This document shows, piece after piece, positions 2,794-64,000 of a DNA stretch of 64,000 bases. Below the pieces are notes generated by a model, which was not told where the DNA came from, did no database searches, and saw nothing but the letters and a program-made list of their open reading frames with translations. Origin of the DNA: Flectonema sp. DT1601 (Eukaryota > Euglenozoa > Diplonemea > Diplonemida > Diplonemidae); the NCBI GenBank assembly GCA_964019425.1, contig OZ025851.1:620001-684000 (forward strand). The letters run 5' to 3'. Each line of letters starts with the position of its first letter. The stretch's first letter is position 1. The translations under genes and the position numbers were made by a program.

Positions 2794-2956
2794 TTATTTC
2801 ATGGCCTCGCAAGGAACAAAGAAATTTTCCTTCTTTTTTTTTTTTTGCGGAGTTGGAAAAATCGGCCAGTTTCTTGTTTTAGTGACTGTACTTTATTGAT
2901 TTCGCAACCTAATATTGGTAAGAATCAGTGGGTACGTTTCACAGGAAAAAGCAATT

Positions 2957-4612
2957 ATGAGAGACAACCTGAGGAGGTTGGTATCGGAGGCAATAAACCT
3001 CCTGAAGATAGTGGGAGAAGACGGGATCCCGGAGCAAGAGAAGGAAAGAAGGGTGGCAAATCTCCTAATGGAGATCGTTCAATTCGTAGCTGGGTCAGAA
3101 GGTGGGAACCCGGAGATGAAGAGGAGGACACCGGACACACTCGATGGGAGTGGTGGGACGGAAGCGACCGCGACGACGGCAGCAGAAGCGACGACACCCT
3201 CAACCACAGGTGTCAACCAACCAACTACAGGAGCATCTACAGCTTCTAATCAACAGACGAGTACGAAGCCGTTCTCATTGCCGATACCGACAGCAATGAA
3301 GGACAATCAAACCACGAAGGGAAAAGCAAAAGCAAGCTACCCGGAGTGGCACATTCACGGTGCGTGGGCAGGCACTGTGGCCACCATCAGTTACGACGTA
3401 GCAGCTAATGCTACAAACAACCTTACCTCTGGTCTTGTTTTAGTTCGTTCGAAGCTAGACTTAGAAGCACTCCGCCAAACAAAGAAGAGCGGCCGTTGGG
3501 CTGCTATCAGCAAAATCCCGCTCACAAAGAGCACCGTTCCAGTAGCATTACCGGTGATAAAAAAGGGTGGCGTCTGCGAGATCAGGCGCGTATTTTACAC
3601 GCACGTATTTGGTGACGACTTTTCTAAAGCAGCAACTAGCCACCAGATTCCAACTCCCAACCCAGTTCTATTCATCCAAGACTGGGGTAAATCAGCTGAG
3701 AAAGAATTGACCGTCAAAACGACCGATATTCTAAAGAAATTGAAGATAAAGGCGGACCCCTTTAGCTACAGAAAGAACGAGTCCCACACCTCGATGGCTT
3801 TCAGAGTCCCCAGAAACCAAGTACACGAGGTTCTGGAATACAACAACAGCGAACCCGAAACTGACAAACCCAAGAATGTCTTTTTCAGAAACCCGAGTTG
3901 GTCGAACGGAAGTGACGTTTGGCCAACGTTGCAATTCAAAAACGACCTTGGCTTCCTGGCAGCGAAGTCCAAGACTTCTGCACTTGATGAATTCAAAGGA
4001 AAATTCTACATGTGCAGGTTTAAAAGCTGTTTTGGACTCCGAGTCCACCCTGACTGTAATATCAGGGTCAGCATTAAGCTCAACGCGGCAATCAAGCCTG
4101 CACTGCCCTCGGGCGACAGGTTTGTTATAAATTCGATGGCGATTCGTAAGTACTCGACAGCGCAGATCAGCGACTTCTTGAAGTCCTCACACAACTGGGA
4201 ACACACAGTTGTTGCTTCTTTCCATAAAGGAGGGAGTACTACAATTGTTGCAATTGCGAAATCTCAACCGCCCAACTTCGTAAGCATAGGTACTAATGAA
4301 TACCTTGTGATAAACAAAGAAGTTAAACGAACTGACAGAAAACCGCTAGGCCCAACCTACAACCCAGGCGACGCGGCTCAAAAACTAACGGGAACCCTGA
4401 AGAGACAAAAAACAACTCCTCAACCACAACAGCCAACTCAGCAGCCGACATCAGCACCAACACCAGCGCCAGCACCATCAGCACCAACACCAACGCCAGC
4501 ACCAGCAACAGCACAAACAACACCGCCCACCGAATCTGCTGCTAAGCAGGATAGTGATAAAAACCGTGACGTAGAAATGGAAAGTAACGATTCGGACTTT
4601 GATCTCAACTGA
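2957..4612 (+). CDS. LINE ORF1 protein
   Basis: 551 codons from the first ATG; the frame is open a little further upstream without an ATG. The N-terminus is helical and charged (MRDNLRRLVSEAINLLKIVG) and is shared, diverged, with the fragment at 63106. A serine/threonine-rich linker follows (residues about 55-110). A large globular region (about 115-455) has alternating hydrophobic and aromatic residues that I cannot assign to a family. The C-terminus is a P/T/A/Q-rich linker with (TPAPAP)-type repeats and an acidic end, DSDFDLN. By analogy with other LINEs it probably binds RNA. It ends at TGA followed by CTAG, in the same frame as ORF2. Confidence 0.75.
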   Translation: MRDNLRRLVSEAINLLKIVGEDGIPEQEKERRVANLLMEIVQFVAGSEGGNPEMKRRTPDTLDGSGGTEATATTAAEATTPSTTGVNQPTTGASTASNQQTSTKPFSLPIPTAMKDNQTTKGKAKASYPEWHIHGAWAGTVATISYDVAANATNNLTSGLVLVRSKLDLEALRQTKKSGRWAAISKIPLTKSTVPVALPVIKKGGVCEIRRVFYTHVFGDDFSKAATSHQIPTPNPVLFIQDWGKSAEKELTVKTTDILKKLKIKADPFSYRKNESHTSMAFRVPRNQVHEVLEYNNSEPETDKPKNVFFRNPSWSNGSDVWPTLQFKNDLGFLAAKSKTSALDEFKGKFYMCRFKSCFGLRVHPDCNIRVSIKLNAAIKPALPSGDRFVINSMAIRKYSTAQISDFLKSSHNWEHTVVASFHKGGSTTIVAIAKSQPPNFVSIGTNEYLVINKEVKRTDRKPLGPTYNPGDAAQKLTGTLKRQKTTPQPQQPTQQPTSAPTPAPAPSAPTPTPAPATAQTTPPTESAAKQDSDKNRDVEMESNDSDFDLN

Positions 4613-4616
4613 CTAG
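4610..4616 (+). promoter_or_regulatory. Leaky stop context UGA-CUAG between ORF1 and ORF2
   Basis: ORF1 ends with TGA followed directly by CTAG, the read-through context known from alphaviruses and from several animal mRNAs. The next stop in this frame is at the end of ORF2. The first ATG after the TGA in this frame lies inside the endonuclease, past its conserved SWNCRS motif, so independent initiation would give a defective protein. Confidence 0.6.
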
Positions 4617-7600
4617 ATGACGATGAGGATGAACTCAGTCCGACCAACTCACTTGTGGAAAAGGATACGGCTCGTGAACTGCTGCTAAAGGCAGGCGACG
4701 TCGAACGCAACCCTGGCCCTGACAACTCTCTCATATCTCTACTGAGCTGGAACTGTCGATCGATGGGGAACAAAGGCGCTTATATTCACAAGCTGCTAAA
4801 TGCCTATGCGCCTGACGTACTGTGCCTACAGGAGACTTGGACGAATGATGTAATTTCGCACACGGACTATTTCACCTATCGGAATGATAGGGCAACACGA
4901 GGTGGAGGGGTTATTTCTATGGTGAAAAAATGCCACACTCAGCAGCGTTTGAACATGGAGCTTCCGCCACACTTAAATGATGTCGAGGTCGTGAAGGTCA
5001 ACATAGGTGGAAAGATTGACATCATCAATGTTTATGCTCCCCCGGGATGCATGATCAGAGAGTCAGATCTTCCAGTCTCAACGAAAGCAATCGTCGCGGG
5101 TGACTTTAATGCCCATCATCCGGTGTGGTCACTTAAATCGACGAGAGCAGGTTCAACTCTACATGCATGGGCAGCTCAAAATGATCTACTGGTTGCTAAC
5201 AAGATGGGGTCAATCACAAGGCCTTTTCCTGACGTCCCGGGGGGTGGTACCTCGCCAGATGTAGTATTCTTTTCAAACTCGATGGTTCTTGAAGAATTTA
5301 GTGCAATTGAAGAAGATAATAAACATGGGTCAGATCATCGACCTCTCTACACCGTACTGGATCCCATGTGCCAACTTGCACGGGCCACGATAGGTTCGAA
5401 GAAACGCGTTGTATGGGACTTCAAGTCTACGGACTGGAACTGCTTTGGGACCATGCTCGAAAAGAGAATTAGAAAATCAAGACTCTCCGATGATGCAACT
5501 GCGAATGCCAAGCTCTTTAACAACATACTTCATGAAGTGGCGGCTAAATTCATTCGTCGACGTCTCCTTTTCAAAGGGAAACGGAGACGAAAGTGGAAGA
5601 CGTCAACCCCTGATTCTACCAAATCGAAGGGTGTCCACCTACGTGATCAACTTGACAAGGGTAACAACTTTGCCTTTGCGTTTAAGAAGATCAAAGAACT
5701 GCAGCAAGATGCTGGTAAAGATATCAGTGTCAACAACATCTCTGACTGCGATCTACCATCAGCATTCTTGGACCTGTTTGTCTCGAAATCGGAAATATTA
5801 TCGCTAGAGGCCCCCGCACTCTCAGAAGGTGATAATGAAATAGATATTTGCTGTGATTTCACAATGGCTGAAATTAAAGCTGCGATTAAGAACCTGAAGA
5901 CCCGCAAGGCTGCAGGACCTGATGGAGTTCACAATGAGATGATCAAAAACTTCACTCCGGCAACAGTGGAATACCTCCTGAGAATTATTAACACTTCCTG
6001 GAAGACTTCAAAAGTACCGTACCAATGGAAACAGGGACTAATCAAGCCCATGTTCAAGGCAGGGAAACCTCGTAATGAACTAAAGAGTTTCAGACCAATA
6101 ACGCTCACCTCGGTTGTTGGGAAACTTGCGGAGAGGCTCGTGTATGACCGACTCATGCACTGGCTCACAAAACATTCGTCGCTCAGTCCACTACAGGCTG
6201 GATTCAGAAAGGGGAGAAATACCTGCGAGCAGATCACCGTTCTAGTAGATGCTATCGTAAGGAGCCACATGGAAGAAAAGAGATCAGTGTTCTTGTCATT
6301 CGACTTTACTGCTGCGTTTGACAGGATCAACCATAAGATACTTTTATTAAAATTAGTAAAGATGGGTGTTCCGAATGTTATTATCAGATGGATCACAGAC
6401 TTTCTTACAAACAGGAAGGTTAGAGTTGAAGCGAATGGGTATTTTAGCGAATTCCGTACTCTGGCTAAGGGGGTTCCCCAGGGATCGATCCTGGGTCCTC
6501 TTCTCTATCTTATCTACGTTGATGACCTCTGCAAGATTTTGGAACTGGAGAAGGAAACAACGACGTCTGCTCTGTATGCGGATGACACAGCATGTGTGGT
6601 GTCAGGATCAAACATGGAAGAAGCTCTTTCGAATGCTCAGTTAGTACTCGACAAAGTGGATCAATGGTGTTTTGAAAACGACATGGCCTTATCAGTCTCC
6701 AAAACCTGTGCGCTTAAGATGAATGTTCGCTCGAAGGGCATAGTACTAAACGATACGTGTAATCGCGAACTGCTTTTCTCTAGATCTGTTGAGGAACGCA
6801 TGCTTAAACTTGACTATGGCGACATCGAGAAGCATATCAATCTCAAATCACCCAGACCCATGCTTCAAAGTGGCGAAACGATTCTTGAAATTGGAGGAAT
6901 CCCAATCAAGACACAAGAAGAACTCGACAACTTGATGCTGCAATACGTCGTTCGTGAGGACAGCATTATGGTTGTGAGAGCAATATTCAAAACTGCCTTT
7001 CTGTTACCGATAGTCGACTCAGTAAAATACCTCGGGGTTCACATCGACGACAGGCTCACCTTCCACAAACAAGTCGGCAAGATTCACGAAGAATTAAAGA
7101 GGGGGATATCACTTCTGCAGTGCCTCCAGCCGTACGAACTGGACTACAAGACTCTTAACATGGTTAAGAACCTTTATGTAACCGCGAGAATCTCGTATGC
7201 GCTTGACAGTTTTGGTTGGCTGATAAGCAGCAGCGTTGACAGCATCGACTTAGAACTGAGGAAGGTCGCCAGACTGGTTACTGGATGCAGCAAGTGTACG
7301 CCAAGAGAGTTACTGTTGTGGGAGTCTGACATGTATCCTTTTAAACGTCAGATTGAAAAGCAGACAAAAATTGCGTACTACAGGTATAAAGCCATGACTT
7401 GGATACCTAATACAAACAGACTCGCCTCAACACAAAGCTACTGGGCTGGCCTAATCCCTGGCACTGATAGTCAGCGTGAAAGCCAGTGCCTTGTGCAGCC
7501 TGACTCGATGGAACCCTGGATATCTCCGACGAACCTTAGGATTAGCAACAGCTGCGGATTTCCGAAGTCCGCTAACCCTGCGGTGGACAAAGAAAAGTTC

Positions 7601-8524
7601 ATGTCGTACATTGGAACGTTGCCTCCTGTCGACATGGTAATCAACTGCGATGGCTCCTACTCTGCTTCCGGCGCGGCCGGTGCGGCTCATATTGCCAAGT
7701 CACGTAGCGGCCTTCGATCTGCTTACGCGTCTAGGCTTTATCAAGCTGACTGCAGCTACAGGGCTGAACAACATGCTCTGAAGAACGCGGCTAGACATCT
7801 GAGAACAGTGTTTAGCAAAGATCGTTCAATGAAATCTGTGAGGATATTCACGGACTCAAAATCCCTTCTGGATGAACTGCTGGGTGGAAGGTGCAGACAG
7901 AGGAATACCGAGTCCCTCAAGATACTGGAATACCTGCGCATGTGTGAGATGAAAGTGCATTTGCAATTCATCCCCTCGCACATTGGAATCGAGTTTCACG
8001 ATGAAGTTGACGCGCTTGCAAAGGAAGCAGCGCACAACAAGAACATCCGACCTGTGCTAGTCAAAGGCACGTACTTCTCGCGATCATCACATGTTAAGCG
8101 CTGCATCAAAAAGGATCTGCTTAACGTGAGTGGTTACACCTGCTACAAACACCTCATCAGAGGCCGTTCCGTTAAATACCCTCCTGGGATGGAAAGAGCC
8201 GACGAGATACGGATAGCGAACTTCCGGACAGGATGTCACCCGCTAATTCAGAACTGGCGCAAGACGATCGACTGCCCATTTTGTGGCGAACCGTCCTCAC
8301 AGGTTCACCTGCTGCAGGGATGTCAATCTCCCAAACTCGACTCGGCCAGGTTCAAAATCCTGGGCTTCTCAACACTGACCGGCAAGTGGGATCGCGACCG
8401 GGAACTTATTATTGCCAACGAAATTCCTAACCTTGAAGCCCTCTTCACTTTAGCGTGGCTTCCATCACTCGCGTTGATCATAAGGTGGATGGAACAAACA
8501 TCTAACCTTAGACTTTGGAAGTAA
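4613..8524 (+). CDS. LINE ORF2: 2A, endonuclease, reverse transcriptase, RNase H
   Basis: Same frame as ORF1, separated only by UGA. Order by nt: acidic linker (4613-4660); 2A motif GDVERNPGP (4694-4720); APE-type endonuclease (about 4730-5365, with SWNCRS, QETW, GDFNAHHP, SDHRP); reverse transcriptase (about 5870-6720, with FRPITLT, FDFTAAFD at 6299, GVPQGSILGPLL, YADD at 6575); a PDZ-like insertion (about 6770-6990); the thumb motif VKYLGVHID (near 7020); RNase H (about 7640-8030, first Asp at 7649, then YRAEQHA, FTDSKS, DALAKEA); and a CCHC finger (CPFCG at 8273). About 1,304 codons after the UGA. The family is ingi/L1Tc-like. All catalytic motifs I can see are present, so the copy may be functional. 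Confidence 0.85.
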   Translation, partial: LDDDEDELSPTNSLVEKDTARELLLKAGDVERNPGPDNSLISLLSWNCRSMGNKGAYIHKLLNAYAPDVLCLQETWTNDVISHTDYFTYRNDRATRGGGVISMVKKCHTQQRLNMELPPHLNDVEVVKVNIGGKIDIINVYAPPGCMIRESDLPVSTKAIVAGDFNAHHPVWSLKSTRAGSTLHAWAAQNDLLVANKMGSITRPFPDVPGGGTSPDVVFFSNSMVLEEFSAIEEDNKHGSDHRPLYTVLDPMCQLARATIGSKKRVVWDFKSTDWNCFGTMLEKRIRKSRLSDDATANAKLFNNILHEVAAKFIRRRLLFKGKRRRKWKTSTPDSTKSKGVHLRDQLDKGNNFAFAFKKIKELQQDAGKDISVNNISDCDLPSAFLDLFVSKSEILSLEAPALSEGDNEIDICCDFTMAEIKAAIKNLKTRKAAGPDGVHNEMIKNFTPATVEYLLRIINTSWKTSKVPYQWKQGLIKPMFKAGKPRNELKSFRPITLTSVVGKLAERLVYDRLMHWLTKHSSLSPLQAGFRKGRNTCEQITVLVDAIVRSHMEEKRSVFLSFDFTAAFDRINHKILLLKLVKMGVPNVIIRWITDFLTNRKVRVEANGYFSEFRTLAKGVPQGSILGPLLYLIYVDDLCKILELEKETTTSALYADDTACVVSGSNMEEALSNAQLVLDKVDQWCFENDMALSVSKTCALKMNVRSKGIVLNDTCNRELLFSRSVEERMLKLDYGDIEKHINLKSPRPMLQSGETILEIGGIPIKTQEELDNLMLQYVVREDSIMVVRAIFKTAFLLPIVDSVKYLGVHIDDRLTFHKQVGKIHEELKRGISLLQCLQPYELDYKTLNMVKNLYVTARISYALDSFGWLISSSVDSIDLELRKVARLVTGCSKCTPRELLLWESDMYPFKRQIEKQTKIAYYRYKAMTWIPNTNRLASTQSYWAGLIPGTDSQRESQCLVQPDSMEPWISPTNLRISNSCGFPKSANPAVDKEKFMSYIGTLPPVDMVINCDGSYSASGAAGAAHIAKSRSGLRSAYASRLYQADCSYRAEQHALKNAARHLRTVFSKDRSMKSVRIFTDSKSLLDELLGGRCRQRNTESLKILEYLRMCEMKVHLQFIPSHIGIEFHDEVDALAKEAAHNKNIRPVLVKGTYFSRSSHVKRCIKKDLLNVSGYTCYKHLIRGRSVKYPPGMERADEIRIANFRTGCHPLIQNWRKTIDCPFCGEPSSQVHLLQGCQSPKLDSARFKILGFSTLTGKWDRDRELIIANEIPNLEALFTLAWLPSLALIIRWMEQTSNLRLWK
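4694..4720 (+). other. 2A ribosome-skipping motif
   Basis: The protein reads LLLKAGDVERNPGP, a perfect match to the D-V/I-E-x-N-P-G-P consensus with the usual leucine-rich lead-in. Skipping would occur between the last Gly and Pro and release ORF2 from anything translated upstream. L1Tc of Trypanosoma cruzi has 2A at the same place. Confidence 0.85.
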
Positions 8525-9002
8525 AGTAGGTGACATGTAGTCGCCAATATCAATTTGTTATTATTTTTAGTATTTTCATCATTATCAATCATCTCCTGGT
8601 TGGGTAACTGCACATCACCTTCGGTGTTGTCGCAGTGTCTCATCCAACACTCCTGTCTCCTTCTTCTCCTATTCTCCTTAAAAATTTCTCTTGAGGGCAG
8701 GCCTTCGGGCTGTTCAAGTGGTCTTTGACCACCGCTCTAGTTATATGCTCGACTCTTTGTTTTTCCTTATCGATGGTAGGAATGGTAACCGAATTAGCTT
8801 CGTGTGTCCAATTTCAAGGACGCGTGACCATTTATTTTTTTTCCGTTGCCGCTCTTCTTACGTCCTCAGGCGGAGCCTACCTATGTTTCCCGTGTTTTCC
8901 AATTTGTCAGACTTAAGTCAAAAAGAAAGTATAAAAGAAAGACAAAACATAGAAGTGAAAAGAACAAAAACAAAGAGTTTGGTAGCACAGACGAGTGTAA
9001 CC
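8525..9002 (+). other. LINE 3' untranslated region
   Basis: Between the ORF2 stop and the poly-A tail. It contains two short hairpin-like segments (GCAGGCCTTCGGGCTG near 8697; AGTGGTCTTTGACCACCGCT near 8718) and then becomes A-rich. No coding feature is seen. Confidence 0.6.
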
Positions 9003-9029
9003 AAAAAAAAAAAAAAAAAAGTGACTCTC

Positions 9030-9266
9030 GGGGGCGTCATAGTGCAGTGGATGGGGTGGTGCCCCCGCACCCAATCGGCCTCGGTTCGAACCCCGCTGTA
9101 CGCACCGCGCCTCACAGCGCAATCAGTTTCCGTGTCGCATCCCCCATTGTCTCGAAAAAGTGAACGGCCACCCAGTAAGGGCAGCGCCTAAGCAATTATA
9201 GTAGTAACAAAAAGAAGGAGAAACACAGTAGTGAAACACTCAAAAAAAAAAAAAAAAAAAAAAAAA
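9030..9266 (+). mobile_element. tRNA-derived SINE, full-length copy
   Basis: Flanked by GACTCTC direct repeats (9023-9029 and 9267-9273) and ending in 25 A. The head carries Pol III box A (TAGTGCAGTGG) and box B (GGTTCGAACCC). The body (CCACCCAGTAAGGGCAGCG, ending GTGAAACACTC) has no clear relation to tRNA. A second, 5'-truncated copy lies at 62682. The left duplication overlaps the LINE's right duplication, so it inserted exactly at the LINE's 3' border. Confidence 0.8.
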
Positions 9267-13256: not shown

Positions 13257-13586
13257 ATGCTGCGGTTATCAACTTCCGCCGCGGGAAGTGGTTCTGACAA
13301 AAGTGGAAGTAAAATAGCTGGAAGCCATGTGTCTGTGAAGAAGATGGGAAAGAGTGATTCGTTAGGAGAGAAGAATGTATGTATTTTATTATATATCTAC
13401 GAAGTGTTTTGTTTGTAACAAACTCAACTCAACTCAACTCAACTCAACAATCAGATCGACCACGGAATTGATATAAATAAAAGAATTCATCTGCATGCCG
13501 GTTCTCACAAACATTCTAAAAACGGTTATGAGTTAAGCAGCAATGTGATTATGTCTCCAAATGCTCTCGCGTTCGGTGATTTGTGA
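13257..13586 (+). CDS. Small two-exon hypothetical protein
   Basis: Exon 1 (13257-13376, 40 codons, beginning MLRLSTSAAGSGSDKSGSK) is followed by a 78-nt intron (GTATGT ... CAG, with five CAACT repeats before the acceptor). Exon 2 (13455-13586) gives IDHGIDINKRIHLHAG and ends at TGA, for 83 residues, both phases 0. The protein is basic and His/Ser-rich with no family I recognise. The clean phase-0 intron supports reality; the short length argues caution. An 18S rRNA fragment begins about 40 nt after the stop, so the gene may have been cut short by that insertion. Confidence 0.4.
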
Positions 13587-13624
13587 TGACAGCAGAAGAA
13601 TAGTGCTTTTTGCATTCTGAAGAT

Positions 13625-13733
13625 TGCAATTTGGTGGGCAGGTCTGGTGCCAGCACCCGCGGTAATTCCAGCACCAATAGCGTATATTAATGCTGCTGCT
13701 GTTAAAAAGCTCGTAGTTGGATCCAGAGTACAA
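13625..13733 (+). pseudogene. 18S rRNA fragment (530 loop to V4)
   Basis: Contains GGTCTGGTGCCAGCACCCGC, GGTAATTCCAGCACCAATAG, CGTATATTAATGCTGCTGCT and TTAAAAAGCTCGTAGTTGG in rDNA order. CAGCACCCGC instead of CAGCAGCCGC and ATTAATGCTG are euglenozoan-type variants. Homology fades after 13733 in what would be V4, so it is a dispersed fragment and not a working gene. Confidence 0.85.
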
Positions 13734-14300
13734 GTTACATCGGGCTTCCTCAGTTGTAGCTCCCGTACTGGGGGTTATGATTGTTGAAGATTACAACCCG
13801 TTGTATCAAGACTTGTGCTCTATTAATGGTGGTAATGGAGCCCTGCTCTGCTGACTGAGGCAGACTGCTGATCCGAATTATTGATATTTATTTCTTGTAA
13901 ATGTGTACGAAGTAGTCCGTCCATTATTTCCGATTTAAATATAAATCACTCTGCAGACCCCCAATTTACCAACTTGAGATTTGCATTACTAAAAAAAACG
14001 ATACGCACGAATTACACGGATTGGATTTGGTGATTGTATTGAAAAGTTTTTTTTTTTTTTTTTGCGACCAACTCTGTGAGGAATCAACGTTATTATATCT
14101 CCCTCTCTGACAGCATTTCATAAATTGTGAGACGGCTTTACCAAGGTTGCCACATGCAATCAATTATGCAACTTTTGATTGCCTTCGGTCGGCATTCGCC
14201 ATGAAGCCAGGTGTCTTGTACAAGGCGGAAGACTTCTCTAATATTATTAACACCCACCCCTCATATTCAAGTTACCACTCAGGTAAATCATTTATATAAA
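13734..14300. other. Spacer before NUP93
   Basis: The first part may continue the V4 region of the 18S fragment (not provable by eye). The remainder is T-rich. A pyrimidine/AG acceptor (CACTCAG at 14276-14282) lies 18 nt before the NUP93 ATG. Confidence 0.45.
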
Positions 14301-20912: not shown

Positions 20913-21101
20913 ATACCTTCTCGGCCTTTTGGCTAAGATCAAGTGTAGTATCTGTTCTTATCAGCTTAATATCTGATATGACACCTTGTGTGTCAACGAT
21001 ATTATAGTAATTTCTTGTTGGGGTGTCGGGTAGCTTGGGGCAACTCAGGTCCGGCACAAGTGTTGCCCTGGAGCTGCACCACATCCAGGAGTGGCACACC
21101 C
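20913..21101 (+). ncRNA. U2 spliceosomal snRNA
   Basis: The 5' part ATACCTTCTCGGCCTTTTGG then CTAAGATCAAGTGTAGTATC is almost identical to U2 of animals and yeast. It includes the branch-site recognition GTAGTA and stem IIa/IIc (TTATCAGCTTAATATCTGAT). An Sm-like site AATTTCTTG follows. The 3' stem-loop is GCTGCACCACATCCAGGAG-like, and the RNA ends at a T run. Length is about 189 nt, as usual. Conserved branch-site pairing fits the cis-introns seen in this window. Confidence 0.93.
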
Positions 21102-21345
21102 ATTTTTTATTATAAATCTATAAAAGAAAACTTCTCTTTTTTTATGAAAAGATTTGGTTATCAAGTCCCAAACGTCGTTATTTTGCTAGCGAACCGGTCA
21201 AGGCCGAAGCATTGACTGGATCATTACATTCGATTGAAATTTCCCGCCCTCTCCCCTTCTTTTGACTGATAACCATTACTAAATATCTACTGGGTGACAT
21301 ATTCTTTTGACCAACACTTGCGTTTTAAAAATAACTGTGACTGAT
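21102..21345. other. Spacer after U2
   Basis: No gene recognised. It may contain further rDNA-derived sequence leading into the 18S 3' end, but I cannot align it by eye. Confidence 0.35.
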
Positions 21346-55361: not shown

Positions 55362-58300
55362 ATGTCCTCGCCAAGTGAAGTGCCAGTTATGGCAAGTGTT
55401 AAAGGGATCGAAGACACTAGGGATGCTTGGAATGCAACCAGGGTGAAGATAACCGCAAAAGAGAACGAAATTAATAAGATTGCTGAGCAAATAGGTATTG
55501 ATGTCACTGCACTTCGAATTAGACTGCGAAAGGCAGCCGAAGCCGACTTGTCAGACAATGAAGAGCTTGTAAAGGAGAAGTTCGTTGAATTAAAGGAACT
55601 GAAGGAGTACGAGAAAGACTGCATGGCGTTGTTGAAGCCCAGTGAGGTATACCTTTTTACTTTTTGTTTGTAACGCATTTCGGTAAACCTGTCTGATCGG
55701 GTCCAACCTTTTTTTGTATTGGTCACCGACAGCCCTTTGGACTGATTCGTTCTTTAAATATCTAAACTAACACATTTCATCTATTTCTTAATAGATGAAA
55801 AAGGTGCTGCCAAGTATGTAGGTCAAACCACCAGGACAGCTAGGAACGCGCACTGGTCTTCAAGGTACTCCAAGAAAAGGAACCCTACAGAAATACCTCT
55901 TCCGAAGAGGAGGACCTCTCTATGCCGCTACACTTGAAAAAGTCAACTGAAACCTGGAACTACCTGTTAGTGTTTTTAGAACAGCTGCAGACCCGGGCGA
56001 AACACCTAAACGCTCCTTTGAACATGGATCGATTTGAACGTCGAGAGAGGGAAAAAACGGAAGGTAAACCCCCCCATTATCCCTGATGATAAAAGAGACA
56101 GACCCAAAGAGAAACGTGACAAATCACAACTCAGAACCTGGTATCATACGGAGGATTACAAACTCACAATAGAAACCAATGCAGGGAAATTTGAATCAGT
56201 CCGAAGACAGATCAACCATCTGCTGAATCTCGATTCTTTAAATGAAGATATTATCTCAGAATGGGCATACTCCAGAACAAGGAGAACCCTACGTTGAATT
56301 TTTCAATATATTGATGGTAAGCACCAAATACTTGATAAGATGAATATAATTATCAATGCTTTACAAAAACGCTTGTCATGTCTCACTGAAGAATCAGAAA
56401 AAGGACAGGGCAAACAAAAAGCAGCCTGGTTAAAAGTCAAATTTGTGCCCTGCCATGGGGAATATTCCTTTCAATGGAATATTTAATTGCAAAGAAGCTT
56501 TAGAACTAGCAGCAGGAAGCACAGAACCTCTAACCAGAATGAAAGTCTCTCGTAGACTCAATACAACTCTCAGAGACACCCTTTGTGATCATGCGACGGA
56601 GAGTAGGTTTCTTCCAAAAACAGATTTGAAATCGGCTAAAGAATGCCCTTGCTAAAACTTTGTTGACAAAAATAAACGAACAGACTCTCACGTACTAATT
56701 CACGCTTCAAAGCTGCTGACAACAAAGAGATTCAAAAACCTACTTCTCAAAGGTGGCCGTTATCGCCTACATGATAACAGCGATGAGATCCTCAAAGAAG
56801 TAGAATCAGCAGTTGATGATTTCATCTCATTGCATTATGATCACAGCAAGTTTACTAATCTTGCGATGTTTCTAAAAACTACCCTGAGAGGTTACATCAG
56901 TAATATGCCACCATTACAAAACAATAATGAACTACAAACGGTACAAAAGGAGATTACTAAAATCAAAGAACACATGGATTTTCTCCAGATTGACAAGACA
57001 ACACACGACCTAGCTCTGTGTTGTAGACATTTGTACCAACAAACCCTCAACAACCAAATCAACGGTTGTAATGTCTACAAAGAATACAACATTGAAGAGA
57101 CCAAAGAGGAAATGATTAGGTTAGAAAAACTTAACAAAAAACACGGCTTCAGACACATAAACAAATTACCATATCTTTATGGTAGTCCGAAGTTTCACAA
57201 GAAACCGATGAAGTTTCGTTTCATAGCTGGTTCTTCCTCAAAAACAAACTTCGATATTCAAAAGGAAGGTGACAACTGTTTGTTTAGAGGCAAACCTCTC
57301 ACTACAACCGCCAAGATGTCAAAAGAACTGTCAGGCATCTTAAAAACGCTATTGTTTAGAATTAAAACGATAGAAAAAGAAGAAGAAAGGAAAACCGGAA
57401 TACAGAAATATTTCATAGTTGACAATGTTGATGAGGTAGCTAAATATATTAAAGCTAACGACACTTGTCTCAGCTATAGAAATGTTAAGTCCTTTGACTT
57501 TAGTGACATGTACACTAATTTACCGCACAAGGAAATACTTGAGGAAATTAGTACTATCCTGAATCAGTACATGTCCAATGATGAGACTAACCCGAAACGA
57601 ACTCAACACTCCAGGGAATGGTTTCGCATTTTCAAATAACGAAGATGCAAAAGACAGATGAACCGCAACCCATGGAGTCACCGAGGATCAAACACCTAAC
57701 GCCTCGTACACCAGAAAAACAGGTGACGAAAACATTTGAAAATCCGAAGAGTATTCTTAAAACTCAAGGTGCACCCTCCAGAGCTAAGTCAGTTGCCATC
57801 AACACCATGAATACAGATTACAGGATTCCGACTCCTACTCTGGAACCTGTACTGCCACCACCAACTGCAATCAAAGGTTGGAATATACGACAAACTGATG
57901 AGATTATGAAATCACTCAGAGATAGTCAGAGTCCAACTAGAGGCAATTCAACTACACTTCCACCACCAAAACTCCATAAGCCTAAACAACGAAGACTAAG
58001 GAGAACTATTCCGAAGGTGGATGAAAATGAAGCAACCTCAGATGTGGCCCAGCTCCAGCTTCAACAAGAAGTGAATCGAAACGTCTACGGACTACAGGGC
58101 ATAGGACGCTCAACCTGTTAGAACGTGTCCCCCGAATTACCAGATTTGACAACGTCTTCTGGTCAGTAAGACATAAAATATAGTTTTCTCTTTTTATGTT
58201 TTCTTTTTTCTAAACGTAATTTTCTTTGATTAACAACTACAAATATTTACCAGTCAAGTACTTGATATTAATTATGTTTTTAATACCCTAAAGTTGTTAC

Positions 58301-59317: not shown

Positions 59318-61117
59318 TTCCAAAAAACACTAATACAAACACAGAAAACCAAACCGGAAGTTACGCTTACGTCAGAGGATCTGCGGAGAAAATTGTACCC
59401 TCTGCTCGCATCTGGTGATACTGGGAGAAACTGGAATTTTCAACACGCAAAAAAGGACCTGAAGTCACTTAAGAAAGCTTTCAAGTCATTCATAAGCTGC
59501 CAAGACAAGATCGGTGCGAAACAGATGCTATCTCTTGTAACCATCGCAGGTGGGATGGGCACTGGGAAGAGCCGCACTCTGACGGAGGTGCCGCGGTTGC
59601 TAAAGACGTTCTTTCCGAAGTACTTCAAAAAACACCAGCTTATAGTAGTCAGCGTTTCTTTCGAAAATGGCACACCGGTGCTACCGGAGGATATAGATTC
59701 ACATTCTGCTGTCGTGGGTTCAGTAGCGGTGCGGATGATGTGGCAGCTGAAGGGTCAAGGAGGAAGTAAAGAAAAAACTTTCCATGAATTCACGAGCACC
59801 TGGCGTGGCACAACGATCGGGACGGTCGCACAGAAAATCCACGATGCTGCAGGCAACAACCCACTCATATTGTTGCTTGTCGACGGTGTCCACAATGTGG
59901 GTTCGGAAAGAGATGCATATCAGAACAGCAACATGCGGATCATCCTCCACACACTGTCAAGTGTGATGCTTTCAGACACATATAACCTGTTCCCTGTGGC
60001 AAGTGCCACAGTCTCAGAACCGGTTCGCAAAGCAATGGCGGCCTCAGCTACGGTCAGTGGAGCTCTAATGCACCCCCCCAAGCTGTTTAGAATGCCTGAA
60101 GGGATCACCCAGAATGCTGAGACTGTGATGTCTCTAACACTTGGTCATCCGCGCGCTGTCGAGGCGGTTGCTGACGTTAAGAAGCCCCATTGTTCCTTCA
60201 AGAAATTGTGCGAGTATGCTGCCACCAACCTTTCTGTTAGGTACCGCATGATTGCTCCAGATGTCAACGTCCCACACCTGCTCAACATGTGCTTCAAGAA
60301 TTTGTCAGACGAGGAAGCGCTCGAACTTGACCCAGTAATTGCCTCTGGATTGATGACGCTTAACAACTGGCGTTTGGAGATTGCACCCCTGTGGCTCGCG
60401 CTTCAAAGAAACCTTGGATCCGCCACCCTCAGAGACTGGGACTGGTCAGCTTCAGTGGAGAATCAGGGCTACGAAAAGTTCGCGGCTCAGATCCTCGCAA
60501 TCCGTTCACATGTACGGCCGAAGGGAGCAACGTGCCTCAATGATATGCACTACGGGGCTGACTGGGTCGGTAAGGGATACATGAAGTGCACCAACAGACC
60601 TTTAACAGTTATTGAGAGTTCCCGTCGAATTACCTCAGCAAGCGAGAAGAAGGCTGCAGCCATTGGAGCTAAGAATGGGAACTGGAGCATCAACACAAGT
60701 AGCGGTTCGAGGGAATTGACTACGGATGTGTGTGTTATCAACGGGAAGGGTGCTCCGTCAGCTGCCGTTTTCTACAGGCTTAGCGAGGATCAAACGCTCA
60801 GCGTGTCATGCAAGCTCCAGGAACACGCTGGAGATGTGAAAACCCTCTCCAGAGACGAGCTTAGAAAGAACACATCTGCATCAGTTTCTCCACGTGATGT
60901 CCATCTGGTCTTCACAAACAAGACTCTTCCAAAGGATTGGAAAGGAATTCTGAGAAAATGCAACCCCGAGGCAACATTTGGTGCGGTGCATAGTAGAAAC
61001 TTCAAAAGTTATTTCGGTCCATTTGCTCCATTTTGGACTGCGCATACCAACCTCCCAACGAGCACATTGCTCAGGCATCGGGCTTTCATGCCTCGTAGAT
61101 TGTGTAGGTTTTTGTAG
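59318..61117 (+). CDS. RHS/Crinkler-type P-loop ATPase with nuclease-like C-terminus
   Basis: About 599 open codons; the true start is not clear (no good ATG near the frame start). Visible: a leader with TSEDLRRKLYPLLASG, a coiled stretch, Walker A GGMGTGKS (59549-59572), VSFENGTPV (the FNGT motif typical of this ATPase group), Walker B ILLLVDG, and a sensor-like FPVASATVSEP. The C-terminal third (about residues 430-530) has TTDVCVINGKG, AAVFYR and LSVSCKLQE, which fits a PD-(D/E)xK-like core. Retrotransposon hot-spot (RHS) proteins of trypanosomes and Crinkler effectors share this ATPase plus nuclease plan. It lies just after a gene invaded by a retroelement, as the RHS name implies. The core looks whole. 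Confidence 0.6.
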   Translation, partial: FQKTLIQTQKTKPEVTLTSEDLRRKLYPLLASGDTGRNWNFQHAKKDLKSLKKAFKSFISCQDKIGAKQMLSLVTIAGGMGTGKSRTLTEVPRLLKTFFPKYFKKHQLIVVSVSFENGTPVLPEDIDSHSAVVGSVAVRMMWQLKGQGGSKEKTFHEFTSTWRGTTIGTVAQKIHDAAGNNPLILLLVDGVHNVGSERDAYQNSNMRIILHTLSSVMLSDTYNLFPVASATVSEPVRKAMAASATVSGALMHPPKLFRMPEGITQNAETVMSLTLGHPRAVEAVADVKKPHCSFKKLCEYAATNLSVRYRMIAPDVNVPHLLNMCFKNLSDEEALELDPVIASGLMTLNNWRLEIAPLWLALQRNLGSATLRDWDWSASVENQGYEKFAAQILAIRSHVRPKGATCLNDMHYGADWVGKGYMKCTNRPLTVIESSRRITSASEKKAAAIGAKNGNWSINTSSGSRELTTDVCVINGKGAPSAAVFYRLSEDQTLSVSCKLQEHAGDVKTLSRDELRKNTSASVSPRDVHLVFTNKTLPKDWKGILRKCNPEATFGAVHSRNFKSYFGPFAPFWTAHTNLPTSTLLRHRAFMPRRLCRFL

Positions 61118-63015: not shown

Positions 63016-63255
63016 GTTTCTGTACTTTCTGTACTTTATTGATTTCCTACCATTACCTGGTGAGAGTCGATTTTGTGCGGGTTTTCTGACAGACATAAAA
63101 CTATAATGAGCAGTTGTAAGGAGCTGCTTTTGGATGTGATGCGGCTAGTACAAGAAGTGGAGAAAGGGCTAGCAGGAGAAGAAAAGAGAAGGAGGGTTTT
63201 GACTCTCACGATGAGAGTGCTGGATGCCCATTCTTTGTAGTTTTGAAAGTAGGAT
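63016..63255 (+). mobile_element. LINE 5'-end fragment with spliced-leader sequence
   Basis: Begins GTTTCTGTACTTTCTGTACT then TTATTG, the SL 3' end with a 9-nt internal duplication. A 5' UTR follows, then a 44-codon ORF (63106-63240, MSSCKELLLDVMRLVQEVEK ...) related to the LINE ORF1 N-terminus at 2957. After about 63215 the similarity ends. Confidence 0.65.
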
Positions 63256-63560
63256 TTGATGATATATTTGATACGCTGATGTCCTTACCAGCGTCCTGTT
63301 GGAGTTCTTTAATCTTCTTGAAGGCGAAGTTAAAGTTGTTCCCCTTCTTCAGTTGGTCTTTCAGGTGACTGCCTTTTGATTTTAGAGATTCTGGTGAAGA
63401 GGTCTTCCACTTACGTCGGCGCTTGCCCTTAAATAAGATTCTCCTCCGCACGTTCCTCGCAGCTACTTCATGTATTATGTTATTTAATAATTCAACATTA
63501 CCAGTGGCATCATCCGAGGACTTAGCCTCAAAATTCCATTTAGGTAATTTGCCACCGAAA
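63256..63560 (-). mobile_element. Inverted LINE ORF2 fragment
   Basis: The minus strand encodes NNIIHEVAARNVRRRILFKG, RRRKWKTSSPESLKSKGSHL and FKKIKELQQDAGKDISVSNI, closely matching ORF2 between endonuclease and reverse transcriptase (nt 5519-5740). A piece corresponding to DWNCFGTMLEKRIRKSR is absent. It lies tail to tail with the ORF1 fragment, so this is a rearranged or composite copy. Confidence 0.75.
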
Positions 63561-63580
63561 CTGAGCACCAAACAAAAACC

Positions 63581-63652
63581 GCCGTCAGCGGGTTTTGAAC
63601 CCTCGACCGCCATTCTTTCAGACCGGCGTTCTATCAATTGAGCTATATAGCC
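63581..63652 (-). pseudogene. tRNA-Phe (GAA) pseudogene
   Basis: The length is right (72 nt) and box A (TAGCTCAATTG) and a box B-like GGTTCAAAACC are present. The anticodon loop is CTGAAAG, giving anticodon GAA. However, the acceptor has three mismatches and the D, anticodon and T stems one each. No terminator T run follows and the upstream CCAAAAAAAGTTTT element is absent. Confidence 0.65.
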
Positions 63653-63743
63653 ACATAATCGCCGTTCCTTTTTATTTATATAGGTCAATGTCTCTATTAG
63701 TTTTCTTACGATATCAAATATTTCTATCCCAAAAAAAATTAAA

Positions 63744-64000
63744 ATGGCTGGAAAGAAAGCAATGCGTCCGCAAGATAGAAGGGCTGCAGAAAGGAGAGAA
63801 AGAGAAAGGAAAGAGGCGAAGATGATGAGGGAACAAGCCAGAAATGAGATCCGGGAAGAAGAAGAGACCCAACAGCAAGAAGACGAGGACGTGGTGATGG
63901 GAGAATCACCAGAAGTATCAGAGGAAGAAATGGAGATGGACTCTCCAGAAGTACCGGAAGGAATCGCAGTAGAGGTGACCGCAGTAGGACCTCCCGCAGC
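63744..64000 (+). CDS. Start of a highly charged protein, cut by the window edge
   Basis: 85 codons seen, open to the right edge. Basic coiled start (MAGKKAMRPQDRRAAERRER) turning strongly acidic (QQQEDEDVVMGESPEVSEEE) with two SPEV repeats. A pyrimidine/AG site (TATTTATATAG near 63684) lies upstream. Such leaders occur in ORF1 of LINEs and in nuclear proteins. Given the repeat-rich setting a retroelement ORF1 is more likely, but I cannot assign it. Confidence 0.5.
   Translation, partial: MAGKKAMRPQDRRAAERRERERKEAKMMREQARNEIREEEETQQQEDEDVVMGESPEVSEEEMEMDSPEVPEGIAVEVTAVGPPA

Follow-up and report, generated by a model that had tools for sequence, protein, structure and literature searches.

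In L1Tc of trypanosomes, a 2A peptide lies at the N-terminus, ahead of the endonuclease, and we know of no stop codon of a first open reading frame (ORF1) upstream of it. To judge from its title, a 2013 study by Odon reportedly places 2A sequences in endonuclease-type (APE-type) long interspersed nuclear elements (LINEs) of animals, as is also the case for the element described here, and to our knowledge readthrough of an ORF1 stop is not known in those animal LINEs. Our element lies in a 64,000-nucleotide (nt) stretch of DNA from the diplonemid Flectonema sp. DT1601 (contig OZ025851.1, positions 620,001 to 684,000; hereafter the window), where an in-frame TGA and a 2A motif stand in series between ORF1 and a second open reading frame, ORF2. 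How its ORF2 would be produced is, in our judgment, best explained by programmed readthrough at the ORF1 stop and subsequent 2A release, with a probability of roughly 0.83.

Like the window element, L1Tc/ingi is an endonuclease-type LINE of Euglenozoa that encodes a 2A, active in that case (PMC4748587). A single in-frame stop also divides structural protein from polymerase in gammaretroviral Gag-Pol (PMC5009743, PMC11166343), and a UGA splits gag from pol in Tca2, for which the mechanism is called unclear (PMC2194720). SART1 and mammalian L1 are likewise bicistronic LINEs with unusual ORF2 translation; theirs is of the reinitiation type with an ORF2 AUG (PMC5972666), whereas here the two ORFs share one frame and no ORF2 AUG precedes the endonuclease motif. 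In RNA viruses, type I readthrough sites read UAG CARYYA and type II sites UGA, generally followed by CGG or CUA and often by a stem-loop 6-12 nt downstream; UGA CUA, UGA CGG and UAG CARYYA all recur in the LINEs described below, and UGA CUA alone gives ~1.5-2.9% readthrough (PMC11166343). UGA CUA G has been described as a high-readthrough motif, the level of which depends strongly on upstream sequence (PMC12233894). Both of these sources back an earlier reading of this DNA (the original prediction), which had named UGA-CUAG as a leaky motif.

The ORF1-ORF2 junction of family A

The window element is a bicistronic endonuclease-type LINE, assigned to family A, with the following features.

2886..9020, + strand: full-length LINE, family A, subfamily A1 (common 5' start at 2886; 3' ends at ~9009-9021 in most full-length copies)
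2886..2898, + strand: CTGTACTTTATTG, which we take for the last bases of a spliced leader, retained where the element begins (start common to 24/40 sequences)
2943..2944, + strand: AG, a probable trans-splice acceptor 12 nt upstream of the ORF1 ATG (leader joins in L017, L033 and L043)
2957..4612, + strand: ORF1, 551 amino acids, from ATG at 2957 to TGA at 4610-4612
4610..4616, + strand: TGA-CTAG, the proposed readthrough site (leaky stop), in 39/39 junction-spanning copies
4613..4693, + strand: acidic linker LDDDEDELSPTNSLVEKDTARELLLKA, expected to be reached solely via readthrough (substitution rates below, 36 codons)
4694..4720, + strand: 2A/StopGo motif GDVERNPGP, with the expected release point after Gly (4715-4717) and before Pro (4718-4720)
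4718..8524, + strand: predicted post-2A ORF2 protein, with endonuclease, reverse transcriptase and a putative RNase H-like C-terminal region
4745..4762, + strand: SWNCRS endonuclease motif; the earliest ATG in the ORF2 frame (4763) comes after it
8522..8524, + strand: ORF2 stop TAA, then A
9003-9020, + strand: poly(A) closing the LINE

The ORF1 open frame extends over 2900-4612 and is continued in the same frame by ORF2 over 4613-8524 (1303 amino acids). Direct reading of the window bears out that a single TGA in the context TGA-CTAG separates them, as originally proposed (junction codons CTC-AAC-TGA-CTA-GAT), and that an intact GDVERNPGP sits at 4694-4720, between the stop and the endonuclease motif. 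The accompanying claim that the interval from the stop to SWNCRS lacks an ATG holds in the ORF2 frame, where the first ATG is at 4763 (residue 51) and none precedes either GDVERNPGP or SWNCRS. It does not hold in the +1 frame, where an ATG at 4617-4619 belongs to a string conserved in 39/39 copies. The frame opened by this ATG spans 23 codons in A1 and 6 codons in A3, stays open to the end of the displayed stretch in A2, and never joins the ORF2 frame.

A genome search with window positions 4400-4900 returned 40 places including the window; family A copies may exceed 40, because only the best 40 of 82 candidates were scored. CAAC-TGA-CTAGATGA is present in all 39 copies that span the junction, which also share CAACTGACTAGATGA (L047 is the sole one of the 40 that does not reach it), and both ORFs are intact in 20 of the 39. 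Grouped by identity over ~700 bases, these copies form subfamilies A1 (16 copies, 95-100% identity to the window), A2 (4 copies, 84.9-86.8%) and A3 (19 copies, 83.7-84.1%). Alignment of copies at the junction had been named beforehand as the test that could refute the original prediction, and it upheld the prediction: none of the 39 copies has the stop replaced by a sense codon, shifts frame at the junction or places an in-frame AUG ahead of the 2A. Some family A copies are degraded, and the 2A motif of L022 is altered. Genome-wide, a degenerate 2A pattern occurs 137 times (68 + 69) and the reversed control pattern 0 times.

Substitutions in the linker were compared over 36 codons, from the stop through NPGP. 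Between A1 and A2, the ratio of nonsynonymous to synonymous rates (dN/dS) is 0.05, with 9 synonymous changes over 26.2 sites and 2 nonsynonymous changes over 81.8 (Fisher p ~3e-5, site counts rounded). Between A2 and A3, the same codons in the ORF1 frame give 0.20, a moderate constraint. Frames +1 and +2 of the linker hold stops in A1, A2 and A3. As judged from these substitution patterns, some subfamily comparisons show purifying selection on the linker as coding sequence.

The 5' ends of the copies bear on the transcript. CTGTACTTTATTG stands at the 5' start of 24/40 sequences, with one mismatch in L022, and in L047 it is preceded by a longer leader. L017, L033 and L043 begin with leader sequence joined directly past the AG at 2943-2944, and 13/40 copies are 5'-truncated, by eye with no leader at the truncation points. 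We read the leader-bearing 5' ends as products of trans-spliced RNA, which would therefore carry ORF1 and ORF2 on one message. The leader is presumably the organism's own spliced leader, and we take it to resemble the diplonemid one. L1Tc has unspliced transcripts from Pr77 (PMC4748587), whereas the 5' ends of copies of the window family look like leader sequence; in the window, no ribozyme family scored at the gathering threshold, a search that did not target Pr77 itself. We do not class the family A LINE as of the L1Tc/ingi type.

Leader-like sequence was also seen elsewhere. In the 3' flank of L014 (oriented 6724), a 39-nt leader-like sequence is joined to an ATG-bearing sequence with the look of a processed pseudogene. 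Iterated CTGTACTT units lie 5' of L009, L013, L018, L020, L025, L042 and others, as if the end of the leader had been recopied during integration.

In-frame stops in other LINE families

Other families were found in a protein search with the ORF2 N-terminus (best 146 of 340 candidates), with identities to the window ORF2 N-terminus of ~60% in B, 42-44% in C, D and E, 38% in F and 33% in G. Families H and I came from junction searches and were assigned as LINE families by junction similarity and long frames alone. One junction piece was read per family or sublineage, giving 14 pieces with A1, A2 and A3 counted apart. The in-frame stop recurs in eight further families (B-I), all with C at +4. 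The P-site codon, the stop and the next six bases are as follows.

A: AAC TGA CTAGAT
B: AAC TGA CTTGAC
C: AAC TGA CTAGAA
D: AAG TGA CTTGAC
Sublineage D2: AAG TGA CATGAT
E: AAA TGA CGGCAC
H: AAT TGA CCGGCG
F: CAA TAG CAACGA
Sublineage F2: AAA TAG CAACTA
G: CAG TAG CAATCA
Sublineage G2: GAG TAG CAATCA
I: AAT TAA CAACCA

C occupies +4 and A occupies -2 in every one of the 14 junction pieces. Among host ORF ends in the window, C is at +4 in 2/14, or in 1/12 when two likely exon ends are removed (this comparison covers +4, not -2); as background, 31% of ORF1 codons have a middle A and 21% of ORF2 codons a first C. Because the identity of the stop and positions +5 and +6 change while the +4 C is constant, leakiness rather than a particular codon appears to be maintained. 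The type II context is present in A and C (CUA) and in E (CGG), and the type I context in G, G2 and F2; CAA-CGA of F departs from it, and I has CARYYA following UAA. Two adjacent adenines are reportedly a 5' determinant of readthrough, to judge from the title of a work cited in PMC9841425; here the A at -2 is constant and -1 varies. Downstream RNA structure as a stimulator has no support in family A (z -0.44 to +2.17), and only E is clearly structured downstream (z -3.2 over 70 nt, -3.5 over 100 nt).

A census was taken over loci whose match spans the stop position, with stops located to the match and not to an exact place. The stop was present in 27/28 loci of B, 7/7 of C, 63/65 of D, E and H (best 150 of 162 candidates) and 37/40 of F, G, I and their kin. 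Of the three loci listed without a stop among F, G, I and their kin (C85:494960, C8:7196 and C83:401668), C83:401668 does show TAG when read directly (L058). Additional loci have the stop (C31, C2:901975, C59, C27, C66) or are without it (C55:560290). The combined frames measure 1815 in B, 1800-1985 in C, ~2400 in D and E, 2077 in F, 1951 and more in G, 1964 in I and ~3000 or more in H.

An in-frame AUG between the stop and the 2A position occurs in 0/11 pieces read that far (A1, A2, A3 and B-I), and D2 and F2 have none within the 16 and 15 codons, respectively, read after the stop. The published 2A signature is D[V/I]ExNPGP (PMC4981915). A, B, D and E have DVERNPGP, C has DVETNPGP and H has DVERNPG as far as read; GIEQNPGP of F and GIHPNPGP of G keep NPGP and fit the signature partially, and FPRHPGP of I is degenerate and does not fit. 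A 2A or near-2A motif is thus present in seven of the eight further families. We consider it quite likely that a leaky stop followed by 2A is the ancestral, general route to ORF2 in the LINEs of this euglenozoan. At least nine lineages keep the in-frame stop, which would have changed between UGA, UAG and UAA, along with its 3' context, under selection for leakiness.

The proposed route to ORF2 and its alternatives

In the mechanism we propose, the LINE mRNA would probably gain a spliced leader ahead of ORF1. The majority of ribosomes would terminate at the ORF1 UGA and yield the ORF1 protein, and a minority would decode UGA-CUAG as sense and proceed in frame across the acidic linker. At the 2A, the chain would be freed as ORF1-linker-2A and translation would restart at the next proline, so that an ORF2 protein is obtained with a free N-terminus immediately before the endonuclease. 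The ORF1:ORF2 ratio would be governed by readthrough, keeping ORF2 low, and the products would be parted by the 2A. The occurrence and rate of readthrough, the activity of this 2A and the addition of the leader by trans-splicing are what we infer here from sequence.

Several observations weigh against this mechanism. The linker comparison of A1 with A3 gives a dN/dS of 0.58, with no clear purifying selection. The subfamilies are also incompletely independent, because L024, which represents A2 here, comes close to A3 beyond ORF2 codon 36 (dS 0.045), unlike in the linker (dS 0.46), and looks like a mosaic or recombinant. Folding of the sequence 3' of the family A stop, limited to simple local structures, shows nothing stable (z -0.44 to +2.17), and B, D (UGA CUU), D2 (CAU), H (CCG), F and I fall outside the strict type I and II contexts. 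The Fisher value for enrichment of the junction context, 6e-6, overstates independence, because the families are homologous and contexts are shared among them. Matches without a stop exist, namely C8:7196, C55:560290, C83:433916 (weak, B-like) and the fragmentary, D-like C4 and C23 (search output alone), and direct reading of C85:494960 (L059) gives TAT at the stop position plus an ATG nearby. In G2, an in-frame ATG is the fourth codon past the stop, and in the EukProt relative P0004 (a predicted protein, its DNA unseen) a Met precedes the N of NPGP by 28 residues. Finally, 2A release is not general, because the motif of family I is degenerate.

The alternative that survives best, though we regard it as unlikely, is a separate start of ORF2, in which ribosomes would reinitiate, or enter internally, at a non-AUG codon past the ORF1 stop and the 2A would act on a short leader. 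CTG codons are present in the ORF2 frame upstream of the 2A, in-frame ATGs follow the stop position in G2 and L059, P0004 has its Met upstream of the NPGP, and reinitiation-type mechanisms have been described for SART1 and mammalian L1 (PMC5972666). A separate start, however, needs neither the shared frame of ORF1 and ORF2 nor a +4 C after three stop identities, and none of the 11 linkers read to the 2A position has an in-frame AUG.

It is very improbable that the stop is bypassed at the RNA level, with ORF2 made from its own spliced or trans-spliced message. The leader-bearing 5' ends suggest that trans-splicing occurs, and two window genes look, by eye, intron-split. Nevertheless, 0/39 aligned junctions have a deletion at the stop, a count that spliced copies could escape because copies were retrieved by a junction query; the 13 5'-truncated copies appear leaderless at their truncation points; and a message read from the first in-frame AUG would drop SWNCRS.

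Reassignment of UGA to sense, giving one long ORF with no recoding, is harder still to credit. In its favour, TGA ends only 1/14 host ORFs in the window, and we read that one as an exon end, so the window offers no clear example of TGA as a host terminator. Against reassignment, host frames of 233 to 945 amino acids stay open with no TGA and contain 88 TGG codons, an argument that is partly circular, given that the standard code was used to list them. More weight falls on the TAG or TAA that other families have at the site, and on the TAA that ends 9/14 host ORFs. No selenocysteine insertion sequence (SECIS) family reached the threshold in the window. Finally, the idea that the stop is a non-functional relic or private mutation in an ORF that was once fused has next to no chance of being correct. 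Degraded copies and the TAT of L059 at this position speak for it, but the stop stands in 39/39 family A copies, of which 20 retain both ORFs, and the census contradicts this account with eight further families that have a stop between long frames. Readthrough followed by 2A release remains the explanation that we prefer.

Relatives, surroundings and known systems

ORF2 matches PF00078, PF14529 and PF03372; PF00075 (RNase H) is absent from the window ORF2 matches and appears in those of relatives, P0003, P0004 and P0007 among them. ORF1 had no match in a Pfam search of the window protein, and its predicted structure was unusable (mean pLDDT, the predicted local distance difference test, of 36.9); the query for Pfam, the relative search and the structure model began at 2960, one codon past the ATG at 2957. 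Two proteins from ENA, P0241 and P0242, match ORF1 at 99% and 74%; both end in DFDLN like the window ORF1 and may come from the same organism. P0243 from EukProt corresponds to ORF1 at 50% identity, and P0003 and P0243 share the transcript-group name DN1157_c0_g1 as different isoforms. Among viral contigs, 79 stretches matched a search pattern and 0 were confirmed as relatives.

Just downstream of the LINE poly(A), at least 15 of the 27 flanks shown on the 3' side carry a tRNA gene or tRNA-like (B-box) sequence, 12 recognised from the B-box pattern and 3 more by ARAGORN, and the seven ARAGORN tRNAs start 17-22 nt past the element. The flanks concerned are those of the window (9003-9110) and of L009-L013, L016, L017, L019, L020, L022, L028, L029, L039 and L040, and the 64-kb window as a whole has 7 distinct sites with the B-box pattern. 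This placement suggests that the LINE targets genes of RNA polymerase III.

Elsewhere in the window, a U2 spliceosomal RNA gene lies at 20913-21104, and 13541-13796 (256 bases) matches the microsporidian small-subunit rRNA family at 54.2 against a gathering threshold of 50, a possible rRNA fragment. By eye, the open frames at 56656-57639 and 59318-61117 were read as reverse-transcriptase-like and RHS/Crinkler-like ATPase, respectively, and an open frame on the - strand at 63206-64000 has a piece resembling the LINE ORF2 of the P0002 kind. Between 12000 and 64000, 15/16 frames of at least 220 amino acids are on the + strand. The 14 host ORF ends in the window comprise 9 TAA, 4 TAG and 1 TGA. 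The closest named matches of the neighbouring beta-adaptin are Rhum_TRINITY (73%), which we take to be the diplonemid Rhynchopus humris, and Bodo saltans (56%).

In the literature searched, no described LINE has both readthrough and 2A; the sources compared for this combination include PMC12846837, PMC11512398, PMC5972666, PMC5009743, PMC2861651, PMC4981915 and PMC1965478, and key 2A papers (Odon 2013, Luke 2014, Heras 2006) lie outside this coverage. The production of ORF2 in two-ORF LINEs is unsettled in several systems, and the sequence described here predicts a specific, simple mechanism that can be tested with reporters, for which a single genome already contains a range of stop codons and contexts. 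Compared with RNA-virus readthrough sites, those described here lie in LINEs, add UAA with CAA-CCA and other UGA-C contexts, and have no general stem-loop. Compared with Gag-Pol and Tca2, the stop lies in a LINE rather than in a long terminal repeat (LTR) element, no structure was found in family A, and a 2A replaces the protease. If the proposed mechanism is true, LINEs, LTR elements and RNA viruses have converged on one control of the ratio between their products, with the 2A taking the place of the protease.

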